Origin: a virus
Virus record (IMG/VR): IMGVR_UViG_3300050821_024069
Span: 1 to 31,550 of that record
DNA: 31,550 nt
Direction: 5' to 3' (one strand)
This document shows, in pieces, positions 6,448 through 19,601 of the stretch; within the stretch, counting starts at the first letter, position 1; every line of letters starts with the position of its first letter. The notes beneath the pieces were generated by a model. The model made no database searches. It was given only the letters and a program-made list of their open reading frames with translations, and was not told the DNA's origin. Both the position numbers and the translations under genes were made by a program.

Positions 6448-7887
6448 TTATGAGGGATCAGTAGAATCACCAATGTTCTTTTCTCCTGGCGGCGGAACGT
6501 TGTTCGCGGGTTCCGCTTCGTCGTTTGTCTTGTTCGGAGCCGGTTTAACGTTGGTGATACCGATAACCTTTTCATCGTTGAGAATTGCAACCTGAGTGAT
6601 ATAACCCCATTTGTAAAGCAGTTCACGAATTTCCCTACTTGTCATCTGTGACGCAATGAGCGTTTCATCTGTGAACACGGTATTAATCGGCTCGATTGGG
6701 AGGATTTGTAAATCACATCCTTTGAAGTTTATGCCAAGCAGCTTGTTAAAGAGTTGCAGCAATATGCGCTGTTGAGGTTTTACATAGGTGTTCTGGAAAA
6801 TGCTATACCCCTGCAAGTACTCCGATCCGTGCCCGAGTTTACCAGCCGTCTGCACCCCGAAGATTGCGGGAGTAGTGACACGGTGACCGACAAAGATTTC
6901 ATCTCTTACAGAAGTCTGCAAGTTGATGAATCGTTTATCTAAATCCGGCTGCTCGATTGTGTCGATCTTGGGGGCCGCGTCCTTGTTGTCTGCAAACGTA
7001 AAGATCGCTTTACCAGCTTGCGACGATCCGCCCCATTTATCGGTCATCTTCTTTTCAATAAAAGCCTTTTCTTCTTCAGTCGGCTCACCATTCAGGAATG
7101 ATACCATAATCGATGGAAAGAACCCATTGCGAATTTGGTTGAGGTTGAAGTTCGCTATCTCAATCGACGTTTCAATTGCGGGGATCGATCCGATGTACTG
7201 GGGAACGGGATACCATTCGCGGGTTAGTGTACCGCTATAATAGAATATCTTCACCCCGGTAGGATCAGCTTCATCATACAGATCATAATCAATCGTCTTT
7301 ACTCTTTGAAGCGACCAATCCTTTGCATAGCGCAATTTATCCGCATCCAAAGTGAAGCGGAACTTTCTCAGGTCTATATATCTGATCTCAGCAATTTGCG
7401 GTTTCTTAGCCGTCGATCCCTTCGTATAAATAACTTGTAGAGTGAACCCGCCATAGATTTCATAGTCAAGGCAACATTTTCGGAACACTTCATTAAGGGA
7501 ATTACCTGACCTGTTGCAGGAGTTGATAAACTCATTAATCGCCGCGACATTCTTGGTAACGGCTGTGTTACCACTCGGGATCGTTGTTATCGGCACGTAG
7601 AGACCATTAGCAACGATTTCATCAACCTTACGCAGAATGATAGCCTGATGGAGCGAAGACCCCATAAACGCATTTAAAAGGTAATCCGGGTACTTGTTAT
7701 CGTCGCCATAGGTAAGATACCCACCGTTCGCTTTGTTCTCCTTCATCTTCGGAAGGACGTAACTAGGCTGCTGGATAGAGAAGGCAACCCGATTCGCGTA
7801 ACGGTTGATTATATTTTCCTTCGCCGCGTCAATTGCGGTTAACGGCTTAGAAGATTGGGCTGTGCCTGTAAAAGGTTGTTGATCCAT
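6448..7887 (-). CDS. Phage portal protein
   Basis: This 479-residue protein should form the dodecameric portal ring at the capsid vertex through which DNA is packaged. Portal-like features are an N-terminal region ending in YGDDNKYPDYLLNAF (about residue 61-75), a middle alpha/beta region with INFNLNQIRNGFFPSIMVSF-like wing sequence, then EEEKAFIEKKMTDKWGG, and a clip/stem-like VGHRVTTPAIFGVQ followed by a helical crown. The C-terminal ~40 residues are Pro/Asn/Glu-rich and likely disordered. The length is normal for the family. It lies some 14.5 kb from the large terminase, which it normally neighbours. Confidence 0.85.
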   Translation of the reverse strand: MDQQPFTGTAQSSKPLTAIDAAKENIINRYANRVAFSIQQPSYVLPKMKENKANGGYLTYGDDNKYPDYLLNAFMGSSLHQAIILRKVDEIVANGLYVPITTIPSGNTAVTKNVAAINEFINSCNRSGNSLNEVFRKCCLDYEIYGGFTLQVIYTKGSTAKKPQIAEIRYIDLRKFRFTLDADKLRYAKDWSLQRVKTIDYDLYDEADPTGVKIFYYSGTLTREWYPVPQYIGSIPAIETSIEIANFNLNQIRNGFFPSIMVSFLNGEPTEEEKAFIEKKMTDKWGGSSQAGKAIFTFADNKDAAPKIDTIEQPDLDKRFINLQTSVRDEIFVGHRVTTPAIFGVQTAGKLGHGSEYLQGYSIFQNTYVKPQQRILLQLFNKLLGINFKGCDLQILPIEPINTVFTDETLIASQMTSREIRELLYKWGYITQVAILNDEKVIGITNVKPAPNKTNDEAEPANNVPPPGEKNIGDSTDPS

Positions 7888-14193: not shown

Positions 14194-15165
14194 TTAATTT
14201 AAAAAGGCTTTTTCAATTTGTTGGACGTACCAGGACGTGCAAAAAAGCTGGTTGAAATAATCGGCCTTCACTGTTCCGGGTACTTTCAATCTGTAGTGAG
14301 TTTTCATAAACCCGTTTTTGAAGAAAGGGGTCATCCCCGCGTCATGATACAGTGATCTCGATTTTAAAATGTCAATTGGATCAGTTGACCAAGCAAAGGA
14401 AAGATCGGGAGTGATGCGGGTTTCAATTCCTTTTCTCCAGAGAGACCATAAAACTGCCCACATATCAGAACAATAGCTTTGAAAGCCTTCGTTCTCATTG
14501 ATGAAAAATTCATTGTTGACTGTCTGCAAATACCGTTTCAGGGTTATACATCCTGCCAACACATCTTTCCAAAAATCCGCGTCAATACCTTTTAACAGAT
14601 ATTGCGCCCCTCCCGCTCTTTCTTCATTTGCTTGGATTATATTTCTATTTAAAGAGAATATTTTCGCGCATTCATTGAGTACATCAATTTTCCTGTAGTC
14701 GTGCATCTTGTTTAAAATCACCTGACCGCTCTTCGAATCAAAATACTTTGCTCCTATATAGGATACCGTATCCGACAAATAAACGATATCGTCTTGCAGC
14801 AGCTTTTCGAAATCGATCTCCTTCACAAAGAGAACGTCCGAATCGATGTAGAAAACAGGTTGCCCGGATAGCTCAGGAAAGAGACTATAATGTTTCATCA
14901 GCACATATGGCCTTACCAGGGATTCATATCGCAGTTTGTTGATAGTCGTTTCGTAAAGATTATCCTCGTCCCTATACCAATGGAAAGTGACCAGCGGAAA
15001 ATCTTCTTTCAGCCTCAGCCAAATCGGGTCGATCTGCTCATCTTCTTTTGCCAGGACCAGGACATGAAGAAGCCGGTCATAACCATATTGCTGCATGTTC
15101 ACGATCTGTACCCTTGTTTGCCATGCGTACTGAATTACGTTCGGTTGTGCTGTGAGTATTAACAT
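14194..15165 (-). CDS. Glycosyltransferase (GT-A fold, DxD motif)
   Basis: I chose the ATG at 15163-15165 (MLILTAQ, 323 residues). It overlaps the stop of the tail gene by 7 bases, implying translational coupling. A longer form from 15258 would add 31 residues inside that gene and is less likely. The protein shows a nucleotide-sugar-binding DxD (VFYIDSDVLF, Asp108/Asp110) after RPYVLMKHY, then GGAQYLLKG (185-193), CSDMWAVLW (232-240) and YHDAG near the end. These are reminiscent of GT8-like and plant peptidyl arabinosyl/galactosyltransferases, a weak resemblance. No signal peptide or membrane segment is seen, so it should act in the cytoplasm. Its position between two tail genes suggests that it modifies a virion protein. 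Confidence 0.7.
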   Translation of the reverse strand: MLILTAQPNVIQYAWQTRVQIVNMQQYGYDRLLHVLVLAKEDEQIDPIWLRLKEDFPLVTFHWYRDEDNLYETTINKLRYESLVRPYVLMKHYSLFPELSGQPVFYIDSDVLFVKEIDFEKLLQDDIVYLSDTVSYIGAKYFDSKSGQVILNKMHDYRKIDVLNECAKIFSLNRNIIQANEERAGGAQYLLKGIDADFWKDVLAGCITLKRYLQTVNNEFFINENEGFQSYCSDMWAVLWSLWRKGIETRITPDLSFAWSTDPIDILKSRSLYHDAGMTPFFKNGFMKTHYRLKVPGTVKADYFNQLFCTSWYVQQIEKAFLN

Positions 15166-18100
15166 GATCCTGTGCCTAATTGAATTGTTATTTTGTCTGT
15201 TGATAAATAGCTGGTCGATGATAATGTAAAACTTCCCGTTGCTGTCACATTGATACAATCGACAAGAACACCATTTTTGATTAGCGATATAGAAAAGGTT
15301 TCAGGACCACCGGGGATTGATCCCGTAACCGTCACCGCAATTGAGCCGGTGAAAGCTGAATGATATCCTGAATATGTCCCGCTGCCAGTGATACCAGGGA
15401 AGGAAGGGGTTAGGCCGCTGATCCCTGTTACTGAGGTAATGTTGGCTGTGTTGATACCGTTCTGAATTACCACCGTTGGCGAAGGCGTGGTTGTCGTAGT
15501 CGTTGATGTGGTCGATGTTGTCGATGTGGTTGTTGTAGTGGTCGAAGTTGTGGTTGTCGTCGATGATGTTGTTGTGCTGCTTGTGCTGGTACTTGTTCCA
15601 CTGCACTGCCCAGTAGTAAAGATGATACTGATCGTATCCGTTCCGTTAAACGTCTCAGATGAGAAGTTATAGGAGCCGGTTGCGTTCACATCGATACAAC
15701 TTACTGATGTGCCATTCTTAAAGAGAACAGCATACAGCGTGTTGATCGGCAGCGTTGGGCCTGTTATGTCAATGCTGATAACTCCAGTGAACGATGAGTA
15801 AGTTCCATAATATGTTCCATCACCTACCAGGGGCAGACCTTGCGATCCGACTTGTGTAAGCCCGTTGATCCCTGAAACATTGAAGGTATTACCATTCACA
15901 AAGTTTTGAATCGTTACGGTTGGAGCCGGGTAAACAGTTACCGCGGTCGTTGTCGTTCCAGATATGCCGTAATTGTCAACGGCTGTGAATCTATAAACGT
16001 AAGTTCCCGCTGTGGTGATTCCCGTTACATACGTATTCAGTGCGTAAGGGCTTTCGATAACAGATGTTGAACCGCTGATCTGCGTCCACTGAGTAAAGAC
16101 AACATCCGCGCACGAATTGCCCGAAGCTGTACCAAGCAATTCAACCGTTGAACTTGGCAAGGTGATCGGTCCGTTATTTGTTGCCGTTACGGTCGGGGCG
16201 GCTGAGTGTGCGGTTATAGTAACTGAAATCTGCTGATTGGTGCTGAGACCGTAGTTAGTCGTAACATATAAATTAAATTCGTAAGTACCGACTTCAAGAT
16301 TTGTAACTTCTGTGCTATATGCGTTCGGCGTTGCCAGGGTTGCCGTGTTGGGACCGCTTATTTGTGTCCACTTGTAATAATCAATATCCACCCCGTCCGG
16401 ATCAACCACTGAAACCGAAGTCAATTCGAAATTGTCGCAAGCAACGTCCAGCGATCCGATTGCATAGAGGTTGAGAGTGGCCGGGTCGGTGGTGAATTGG
16501 AATAATGGCAGCCGAATTAGTTCGGCCTGAGTGGTAACGCTATCATCTGAAGCATAATCTTTGATAGAGTTAACCCGGTAATTCGTCCCGTCCACTGCTA
16601 TGATATTCGACAAGTCAAGATTTGAAATGTCGATTGAGTTCAATTTTAATTTGCAGTCTACGAACTTCGCCGATTCGTCAGTGATCTCGTTGACTGTATT
16701 GAGCCAATAACGGCTGAATAAATTTCTCGTCGGATAATCAACCGGCAGCGTGAAAAATAACTCGTCGGGTTCTGCAAAGAGCAAATCCCTGGTCGGGTTG
16801 GTCGGATCATCAAGATGCGAACAGAATGGATATTGTGTCCATGTTTCAGCGCCGCTGTTCGTTGTCACGAATGGACTACCCGGCTCAAAATAATAGTATG
16901 TCCCTACAGTTAAGGCAAGTGCTGGCTGAGGGGTATACTGGATAGTGAACGGATTACATTTATTGTTGCCCCCGCTGATCTTCGAGAAAAGCAAAATGCG
17001 TGGCTTGCTCTTATGGGGCTTAAAGGTGATGCCATTATCCGGGGTCTCCGCCATAACTGGCACGATGACGTTAGAATCAGTAATGTAATTGAACCCGTCA
17101 TTTGTGGCGTAGTACGTCCCGTTAACCTGGTTCTCCGTTAGTGGTGAAATAACCGGACGCACGAGTGTACGATCCACCTGGAAACAGTAGTCATTATAAA
17201 CCCCAATAATGGTATATATATTTCCCCAATAGGAAATCTTTGTACCAACCTTCGCGCGAACGAATTTTGTTCCCGAGAAGTTATTTACAATAGGAGGCGT
17301 TCCCCCAACTTCTCCAGACCTGTTTCCATTCACGGCGTAGTATCCAGCAGCTTGAATATATGTGTTGCTCGAATTTTCAACCGGGTCAGTGAAAGGGGTA
17401 TTCATGATCTCAATCGGCCCTTCCGATGGAAACATATCATTTGCGGATTGTACGGGGATCGTCGGCGCAAAGATCAGGTCTTTCATGACGTTCTTTATAC
17501 CAGGGGCAAACTCGTAACCTGTATTCAAACGGAGTTCGCCGTATGAGAAGCCGTTGTATAAACTCTCGTAATATTTGTTATAAAAGTCATCATCTTTTGC
17601 ATAGGTGAATTGCAATTGCGCCGCGTCCAGCTCGGGGATCGGCTTGACGATGAAAGGAGCAAGGTTATCCACTTTCTTCGTCCAATCCAATGTGTCCTGG
17701 TTTGCGAAATATTCGTCGCGGGTGTAGATATTGAAATGCTTAGGGATAACCGGGTCTTGTTCTAAATACAAATTAAAAAGACGAATTATAGAACTTAGGT
17801 AATCCGTTTGCTTGATATTCTTGGGAACAAAGTCTTTGAACCGAAGATATTGCCCGTCCAATATCGTAGACCGTTGCATCTCGATAACAGGAAGATCAGA
17901 CGGCGTATCCCTCAGCAAATTGCAATAGATGAATCCGTCAGAATACCCACCACCGCCATAATAAGGGAAAAGATCGCTTGGCTCCGCTTCGTTGATTACC
18001 GCAACGCAAGAAATTTGAACGTCGAAATATTGATCGTCGGCAGTCAGGAAGATCGGTATATCCGCAAAGTTCACATTGAATGTATCGGATGTAACGGTTA

Positions 18101-19601
18101 CCCCTTCGAAGTATGGCTCCCCGTCGAAAGTAACAGCACCGGTGATTAACTCCGTTTCCCACAAATCAATTGTCTGCAACGGCGCGCCTCCAATAGGGTT
18201 AGCCGTGTCATAGATGTTCACGGTTACAAACATTCCAATCAGCGGGTTTTGCAATTGCCGTCCCGAATCAACCGGCTCAAATGTGAGGTTGAAAGCGTAT
18301 TGCACAGATACGGCATAAGTTCCTGCTTGCTCGGGGTTATAATTACCCAGGGTAGCGTTATATAGATTGTAAGGATCGCTTGCATCGACGTTACCAAATT
18401 GCGCAGACGTTGCGCCGCTCGTATATGGAGCAGGTTCTTCTTCTTCCGATAAATAGGCAGGGAATGTAATTGCCGAGCCAATGTTAGAAGTCGCTTGCAC
18501 ATCGAACGTATCAACGAGCGTAAAGTTTCCTTCGTGAAATGGAATGATCAGCGAGTTAAAATATGTGCTGGCAAGGAATGTACTTGAATAAGTATAACCC
18601 ACCGACGCAAAAATATCGTTGATGTAATTGATCGCATATAAACACGGTCTAAAATTCTGCGTATAGAAACAAGTGAAGTTCGAAGTGCTGTCCTGGTCCC
18701 CGTATTCGATCAATGGATAGACATATGGCGTGTTACCAAACCATGAACTTGTAATATTGCCGATGATGAGTTGATGATCGTACGGCGAATCCAAATCTAC
18801 TATATTGCCGGCGTTGTCTGTAATGGTATAGAGGTCTTGTAAACGCTGATTCGCAAGTAGTGCATTCAAGGCGCCAAGTTCGGACGTAATTTGAATTTGG
18901 TATTCGATCAGTCCATCTACATTCGTCGCTCCTACTAACTTCGCATAGCCTGCCAAAACAATTTGACTGTCTTGCAGGACATAGGCTTTCATTCTCTTTT
19001 TGAAATCCAGATTGTACCCGATGTTTCCACCAAGCCCCGGATTTGTTGTTGAAAAATCGATTTCCAGAATATCAGTATATAGATATTGATCCGAAGGAAA
19101 TAAATACGTGTTGACTGTTGACGTTACCTTATTGGTTTGGATCGTCGTACCATTAACCTTGAAACTGACATAGCCGGACGTGTTGCCTGACACCTCAACG
19201 GACCAATTCACGAAATTGATTTGATCATGCAAAGAGGTCTGATTTGTTCCGTTTGTTATCGGCGTTACCAGGGTTGACCCGTCATAAGTGTTGAACGTGT
19301 TCCCCTCCAGGTTGACCGCCACAACTGCAAGACCAGGGATGTTATTCGAAACCTTTGCAGTATAGGTCTCAGGAATTACGAAATATGCGCCGGTACTTTT
19401 TATGTCAAAGAAATAATTGAAAAGCCTGTTATTATTCTGCGATCCGGGTAGAGTAATGGTATTGGAATAGTTAGACGATTTCTTAGTGATATCCTTAACC
19501 GAAGCAATTTCAAAGTTTGCGGTAATAGAAATCTCGTCCAGCAAATCAACTTCCTGGCCTTCTAAAAAAAGTCGTGTATTTTTTGAACTATTATTTTTCA
19601 T
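15159..19601 (-). CDS. Giant tail/baseplate protein with PKD domains and Thr/Ser linker
   Basis: This is a 1480-residue protein. The N-terminal part (FLEGQEVDLLDEISITANFEI, SNYSNTITLPGSQNNNRLF, then a GYAKLVGATNVDGLIEYQI segment) resembles a large baseplate-type tail protein of Bacteroidota phages. The C-terminal third is modular. Two PKD/REJ-like beta-sandwiches (about 1050-1130 and 1135-1220) share WTQISG and YxFxxxVxxNYG patterns. They are followed by module A (~1222-1333), a ~40-residue linker of almost pure Thr and Ser (~1334-1374), and module B (~1375-1480), which repeats module A (TVxIQN, GxTGSG/GDGTYxGxxSxFTG, CIxVxATGS). Such domains are typical of adhesive surfaces. It overlaps its upstream neighbour by one base (TAATG) and the glycosyltransferase by 7. 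Confidence 0.75.
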   Translation of the reverse strand: MKNNSSKNTRLFLEGQEVDLLDEISITANFEIASVKDITKKSSNYSNTITLPGSQNNNRLFNYFFDIKSTGAYFVIPETYTAKVSNNIPGLAVVAVNLEGNTFNTYDGSTLVTPITNGTNQTSLHDQINFVNWSVEVSGNTSGYVSFKVNGTTIQTNKVTSTVNTYLFPSDQYLYTDILEIDFSTTNPGLGGNIGYNLDFKKRMKAYVLQDSQIVLAGYAKLVGATNVDGLIEYQIQITSELGALNALLANQRLQDLYTITDNAGNIVDLDSPYDHQLIIGNITSSWFGNTPYVYPLIEYGDQDSTSNFTCFYTQNFRPCLYAINYINDIFASVGYTYSSTFLASTYFNSLIIPFHEGNFTLVDTFDVQATSNIGSAITFPAYLSEEEEPAPYTSGATSAQFGNVDASDPYNLYNATLGNYNPEQAGTYAVSVQYAFNLTFEPVDSGRQLQNPLIGMFVTVNIYDTANPIGGAPLQTIDLWETELITGAVTFDGEPYFEGVTVTSDTFNVNFADIPIFLTADDQYFDVQISCVAVINEAEPSDLFPYYGGGGYSDGFIYCNLLRDTPSDLPVIEMQRSTILDGQYLRFKDFVPKNIKQTDYLSSIIRLFNLYLEQDPVIPKHFNIYTRDEYFANQDTLDWTKKVDNLAPFIVKPIPELDAAQLQFTYAKDDDFYNKYYESLYNGFSYGELRLNTGYEFAPGIKNVMKDLIFAPTIPVQSANDMFPSEGPIEIMNTPFTDPVENSSNTYIQAAGYYAVNGNRSGEVGGTPPIVNNFSGTKFVRAKVGTKISYWGNIYTIIGVYNDYCFQVDRTLVRPVISPLTENQVNGTYYATNDGFNYITDSNVIVPVMAETPDNGITFKPHKSKPRILLFSKISGGNNKCNPFTIQYTPQPALALTVGTYYYFEPGSPFVTTNSGAETWTQYPFCSHLDDPTNPTRDLLFAEPDELFFTLPVDYPTRNLFSRYWLNTVNEITDESAKFVDCKLKLNSIDISNLDLSNIIAVDGTNYRVNSIKDYASDDSVTTQAELIRLPLFQFTTDPATLNLYAIGSLDVACDNFELTSVSVVDPDGVDIDYYKWTQISGPNTATLATPNAYSTEVTNLEVGTYEFNLYVTTNYGLSTNQQISVTITAHSAAPTVTATNNGPITLPSSTVELLGTASGNSCADVVFTQWTQISGSTSVIESPYALNTYVTGITTAGTYVYRFTAVDNYGISGTTTTAVTVYPAPTVTIQNFVNGNTFNVSGINGLTQVGSQGLPLVGDGTYYGTYSSFTGVISIDITGPTLPINTLYAVLFKNGTSVSCIDVNATGSYNFSSETFNGTDTISIIFTTGQCSGTSTSTSSTTTSSTTTTTSTTTTTTSTTSTTSTTTTTTPSPTVVIQNGINTANITSVTGISGLTPSFPGITGSGTYSGYHSAFTGSIAVTVTGSIPGGPETFSISLIKNGVLVDCINVTATGSFTLSSTSYLSTDKITIQLGTGSC
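15486..15602 (-). repeat. Low-complexity Thr/Ser codon repeat (mucin-like linker)
   Basis: On the + strand this stretch is an irregular run of GTN/GTG/GAT triplets. On the coding strand it reads as about 40 codons that are nearly all Thr (ACN) with interspersed Ser. It separates two homologous C-terminal modules of the tail protein. Triplet runs like this can expand or contract by slippage, and dense Ser/Thr is a typical O-glycosylation substrate. Confidence 0.85.

Follow-up and report, generated by a model that had tools for sequence, protein, structure and literature searches.

The window analysed here is the whole of a 31.5-kb IMG/VR virus record. Its structural operon lies on the minus strand and encodes, in the order of transcription, terminase, structural proteins, a 428-residue protein, a 1480-residue tail-region protein, a 323-residue glycosyltransferase (GT), a tape-measure-like protein, an XkdF-type protease and further head proteins (Table 1). 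The GT follows the tail-region protein and precedes the tape-measure-like gene, in agreement with the initial annotation, which had placed it within a tail operon. The arrangement between positions 6448 and 24195 is unusual, with the terminase and tail genes (tail protein, GT and tape measure) ahead of the protease, capsid-like and portal genes, and locus L002 shows the same arrangement from the GT on. A tyrosine-recombinase-like integrase is encoded on the plus strand at positions 1–1281, opposite to the structural operon, and the phage is therefore probably temperate.

At the junction of the tail gene and the GT gene (GGA TCA TGT TAA) the ATG of the GT falls within the last two sense codons of the tail gene, and the resulting overlap of seven nucleotides suggests that the two genes are translationally coupled. 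The GT had been described as starting inside the stop of the tail gene; the overlap is real, with the trivial correction that the ATG lies just ahead of the stop. A scan of the window for promoters and terminators produced no signal exceeding chance.

Table 1. Features of the GT and tail-protein genes in the window.
Feature	Position	Strand	Basis
Glycosyltransferase, 323 residues, PHROG 4417, predicted GT-A fold	14194..15165	-	ORF, profile match, AlphaFold2, Foldseek
DxD motif, D108-S-D110	14836..14844	-	Alignments of relatives
Overlap of tail-gene end and GT start, 7 nt, ATGTTAA	15159..15165	-	Sequence
Tail-region protein, 1480 residues, with proposed acceptor tract	15159..19601	-	ORF; K319L-like PKD, E 7e-21; structural operon, beside tape-measure-like gene
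C-terminal module copy 2, residues 1374-1480	15162..15482	-	45% identity to copy 1
Thr/Ser tract, 37 residues (1336-1372), proposed O-glycan acceptor	15486..15596	-	Sequence
C-terminal module copy 1, residues 1229-1334	15600..15917	-	45% identity to copy 2, E 1e-20
PKD-like domain, residues 1060-1129, best of two stretches	16215..16424	-	Pfam PF22352 (K319L-like_PKD)

The GT is a full-length match to PHROG 4417 (E 9.9e-48; residues 1–320 against profile positions 1–291 of 293), a family without an assigned function that appears as 'prophage pi2 protein 34' in phages of lactic acid bacteria. It matches no Pfam family at E ≤ 1 and no NCBIfam model. Both aspartates of the DxD motif are invariant in alignments of 19 and 30 sequences (A2 and A3), as are a GAQ and an H-x-x-G motif in the aligned relatives. 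The AlphaFold2 model, calculated from a 30-sequence alignment, is confident (pLDDT 94.5, pTM 0.91), and a Foldseek search of the PDB with it gave 193 matches at E ≤ 0.001, those listed being glycosyltransferases and nearly all of them GT-A enzymes. The top matches (E ∼1e-6 to 1e-5, TM 0.4–0.55) are WbbM, UGGT (GT24), xyloside xylosyltransferase, glycogenin (GT8) and LARGE1. The structural model thus supports well the assignment of the protein as a GT-A glycosyltransferase with predicted sugar-transfer activity, and the DxD glycosyltransferase proposed from the letters alone is borne out. Since the nearest folds include the retaining families GT8 and GT24, retaining chemistry would be expected. 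The GT shares its fold and DxD motif with the GT8 and GT24 group (glycogenin, XXYLT1, LARGE1 and UGGT), but differs from it in sequence (9–14% identity, with no Pfam GT model matching) and in its proposed acceptor.

A scan of genome contigs with the GT alone returned a single locus (L003), which was rejected as a false positive because the gene is pentose-phosphate epimerase-like. Some database labels in these phages have probably been misled by Thr-rich sequence: LpeD orf68 (L417 3584–3988) is labelled herpesvirus glycoprotein gp2 and the tag protein of ENFP1 (L415 3365–3958) Rv0538. The GT of Enterococcus phage 9183 (L006 8001–8870), a PHROG 4417 member, is labelled a PqqD-like chaperone homologue.

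The C-terminus of the tail protein consists of two modules of about 106 residues, preceded by PKD-like domains and separated by the Thr/Ser tract. The modules are true duplicates as judged from their alignment over 109 columns. The 'about 40 nearly pure' Thr/Ser residues reported initially are exactly 37, all of them Thr or Ser, compared with 20% Thr plus Ser in the rest of the protein. The tract uses eight different codons and is therefore not a DNA microsatellite; a 12-codon WCN pattern matches it 19 times and has no match in 100 dinucleotide shuffles. No other such run occurs in the window. A pattern scan of viral contigs found no relative of the tail protein, so its fold is without alignment support; the single-sequence model of the C-terminal 440 residues is poor (pLDDT 46), showing disorder together with β-rich modules.

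The distribution of Thr/Ser runs around GT relatives was analysed in IMG/VR, where a profile scan identified at least 596 stretches encoding such relatives. The best 80 were retrieved regardless of Thr runs and fall into 26 clusters at 80% identity. A run was defined as at least seven residues with at least 60% Thr and at least two codons. With a strict length of at least 12 residues, tracts are found at only 22 of the 80 loci; this limit was lowered for test and control alike, because tags beside the GT usually comprise 6–10 residues, often repeated. Among these best 80 of at least 596 relatives, 24 of the 26 clusters have a run on the strand of the GT and within 3 kb; the two others have either a run about 8 kb away (L271) or none (L324). 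Density falls steeply with distance from the GT, from 2.36 runs per kb at 0–0.5 kb to 0.91 at 0.5–1 kb, 0.25 at 1–2 kb, 0.02 at 2–3 kb, zero at 3–7 kb and 0.02 at 7–10 kb, and the opposite strand holds two runs in total across all loci. In poly-Gly control loci the density is 0.013 per kb and a run is present on the chosen strand in three of 102 windows (Fisher p 1e-20); the base composition of this control is unlike that of GT-bearing phages, but the distance profile within loci is independent of it. GT homologues thus do not lie mostly beside tail proteins that lack Thr/Ser stretches.

The converse comparison started from 120 viral loci with twelve consecutive ACN codons, taken among the matches listed, and 118 control loci retrieved for ten GGN codons. 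The GT is encoded at 13 of the poly-Thr loci and at none of the poly-Gly loci, and elsewhere in the contig for two more of the 50 remaining poly-Thr records tested. It was not found for the other 105, a set with many short contigs and some noncoding or repeat matches; poly-Thr alone therefore does not imply the GT. Enzymes of GT2, GT1 and GT60 (PF11397) flank poly-Thr genes in which phrog_4417 is missing, and none of the three appears in the 25 Pfam families seen most often around the poly-Gly loci, with 11 rarer families beyond these. GT60-type transferases near poly-Thr genes occur at L330 and L331 (the records of L080 and L017), and could represent an independent enzyme for the same acceptor.

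In annotated phages, a tblastn search located the GT in 74 records from phages of Lactobacillus, Enterococcus, Lactococcus, Staphylococcus, Arcanobacterium and Chryseobacterium. The proposed co-occurrence with Thr/Ser stretches is not confined to the phages of Bacteroidota for which it had been suggested. Pure Thr/Ser runs are found near the GT in 16 of 17 regions examined from isolated phages, and the remaining one (ENFP1) has a TTVAP-repeat protein one gene upstream of the GT. In phages of Bacillota the runs are tags at the C-termini of major capsid and major tail proteins, which come from unrelated families. Whole-genome scans place them in the capsid protein, a small tag protein and the major tail protein of PLE3 (only head and tail genes), in the capsid and major tail proteins alone of phiFL1A, and only in the major tail protein and in the capsid reading frame past its stop in bIL285; the first 50 kb of 1706 has runs in the capsid/protease gene, the major tail gene and one small, unassigned gene beside the holin. 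Capsid and tail carriers belong to different PHROG families, which also differ between phages. The tag ends nevertheless match on the capsid and tail proteins of one phage (SK/SK, RHD/RHD and HHD/HHD, within TTTTTTTSK, TTTTTTRHD and TTTTTTTTTHHD), which argues for selection on the tag.

In Enterococcus phages 9183, nattely and vipetofem (L006 7760–7893, L411 3680–3875 and L412 3630–3815) the capsid gene stops just ahead of the GT and the Thr-tag frame runs on in the −1 frame across the stop, with C CCA AAA just upstream in 9183; a programmed frameshift tagging a fraction of the capsid subunits is possible. In Lactococcus phage bIL285 (L007 7920–7985 and L337 21120–21190) the reading frame continues past the capsid TAA with NDKTTTTTTRHD up to a second stop. 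This tag has the same RHD end as that of the major tail protein, and could reflect either stop readthrough or a recently lost tag. Small proteins of ∼60–90 residues are encoded 3′ of the GT in many phages (L250–L329, e.g. L252 11006–11520 and L308 11005–11519), often in tandem, with a common LKAFVRxDGSGR...ECC head and a C-terminal Thr tag; they are possibly capsid decoration proteins.

Homologues with and without the GT were compared in prophages. Five of 298 Lactobacillales genomes contain the GT, and at each of these five loci proteins the size of a capsid and/or tail-tube protein carry C-terminal tags. In the paired negative sample (248 Lactobacillales genomes), all 60 major tail homologues (phrog_238 and phrog_88) lack a Thr tag, and the GT is missing from every one of their 3.5-kb loci. 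A GT-less major tail homologue (L369) ends in ERPGETTGDFGSDDLGQ, while the phiFL1A protein has QRPGETTGDYSNIDNG and then TTTTTSTTTTTTSSTTTTTTTQASSK; the tag is therefore an appendix that accompanies the GT. Taken at the level of sequence, these comparisons establish that the GT family and the Thr/Ser runs of virion genes are associated specifically, recurrently and in both directions, and that the presence of a run is independent of the carrier protein family.

Since GT relatives almost always lie beside virion proteins with Thr runs, these phages probably sugar-coat their own particles, and O-glycosylation of Thr/Ser tags on virion proteins by the GT is very probably what this gene pattern reflects. 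We infer in this the enzymatic activity, Thr and Ser as the acceptor, and the donor and sugar. The GT would work in the host cytoplasm during virion assembly, moving a sugar from a nucleotide-sugar donor via a metal held by the DxD motif to the 37-residue tract in the adjacent tail protein, at its Thr and Ser side chains. The stretch between the two C-terminal modules would thereby become an extended segment with dense O-glycosylation on the virion surface. In relatives, the C-terminal Thr tags of major capsid, major tail and small tag-bearing proteins would be glycosylated likewise. The benefit may be shielding, adhesion, protease protection or stability. Of the original proposal that the phage glycosylates its own tail tip, modification of its own Thr/Ser tract is thus strongly supported on comparative grounds, but tail tips in particular are not: acceptors in relatives would be mostly major capsid, major tail and small tag-bearing proteins, and a C-terminal tag is more usual than the internal linker seen in the window.

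The runs could instead be plain disordered spacers, with glycosylation by the GT taking place elsewhere on the virion. Linkers rich in Thr/Ser can have a structural role, and the tract in the window is predicted to be disordered (pLDDT about 31–34 in a low-confidence single-sequence model), but the C-terminal tags have nothing to space, the runs are made up almost wholly of Thr/Ser and not of Gly/Ser/Pro, and the presence of a run follows the GT and not the carrier family. This explanation is accordingly improbable. Phage GTs that modify host surface polymers are well known, and a role of this GT in superinfection exclusion or serotype conversion would make the Thr/Ser neighbourhood incidental. 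GTs with that role are noted in PMC12619734, and the nearest folds include glycan-acting enzymes (WbbM). However, in nearly all annotated phages examined the GT is embedded in the head and tail genes and immediately follows one for a capsid, tail or tag protein, and no flippase or polysaccharide-synthesis gene is annotated beside it in the annotated phage records; nor would a host polymer as substrate explain why Thr runs cluster within 1 kb of the GT and track its presence. A host-surface role therefore appears very improbable.

Co-inheritance of tags and GT by common descent, with no functional link, would fit the relatedness of all phrog_4417 genes and their often conserved position. It is extremely unlikely given that tags occur on several capsid and tail-tube PHROG families as well as on small tag proteins, that they reappear in phages of Lactobacillales, Staphylococcus, Arcanobacterium and Chryseobacterium whose gene neighbourhoods differ, and that matching capsid and tail tag ends within one phage imply selection. 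Glucosylation of modified phage DNA bases, a known role of some phage GTs, can practically be dismissed in view of the placement of the GT among late structural genes and of its nearest folds, which are protein- or glycan-acting GT-A enzymes and not T4-type DNA glucosyltransferases.

The nearest precedent for the proposed O-glycosylation of Thr tags by phrog_4417 enzymes is the virion O-glycosylation of mycobacteriophages Che8, Corndog and Myrna, whose capsid and tail-tube proteins are reported to bear O-glycans at their C-termini (Freeman et al., 2023, doi 10.1016/j.chom.2023.05.028, as described in PMC12619734, PMC12363180 and PMC11652166). Antibody shielding of glycosylated mycobacteriophages is documented as reported in PMC12363180 and PMC11652166. 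The phrog_4417 system may work alike: a phage-encoded GT is common to both, and the C-terminal Thr tags of the Bacillota relatives lie exactly on the major capsid and major tail proteins, whereas the proposed acceptor in the window is an internal tract of a tail protein. The phrog_4417 system differs in having the GT beside its proposed acceptor and a Thr/Ser run as that acceptor. It is set apart further since the 74 tblastn records, when tallied by organism name, include no mycobacteriophage, and the capsid and tail proteins of Che8, the one mycobacteriophage checked, have no poly-Thr tail.

The GT60 polypeptide α-GlcNAc transferases (PF11397) act on Thr-rich mucin-like proteins. They and phrog_4417 are separate sequence families, and with GT60 found near poly-Thr genes in two virus records, GT60 could be a convergent partner rather than a relative of phrog_4417. 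Tentatively, and with rather less than even confidence, the observations could be extended to a portable glyco-tag system in phages of several bacterial phyla, in which a GT-A enzyme and poly-Thr tags on outward virion proteins would give a bottle-brush sugar coat, recoding would set the share of tagged capsid in some phages (−1 frameshifting in 9183, nattely and vipetofem, and readthrough in bIL285), and GT60 and GT2 would have converged on the same acceptor.

No report of poly-Thr virion tags in phages was found in the open-licence literature, bioRxiv preprints lying outside its coverage, and virion glycosylation is documented for only a few mycobacteriophages in the literature found. The present results tie a phage gene family that has no name but is common (at least 596 IMG/VR stretches) to a readable sequence signature in capsid and tail proteins, so that the modification can be predicted from sequence and tested at once in the easily grown phages of lactic acid bacteria. 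If correct, O-glycosylation of Thr/Ser tags by this family would bear on phage antigenicity, adsorption and mucus adhesion, and would provide a compact enzyme and peptide tag for O-glycosylation in bacteria.
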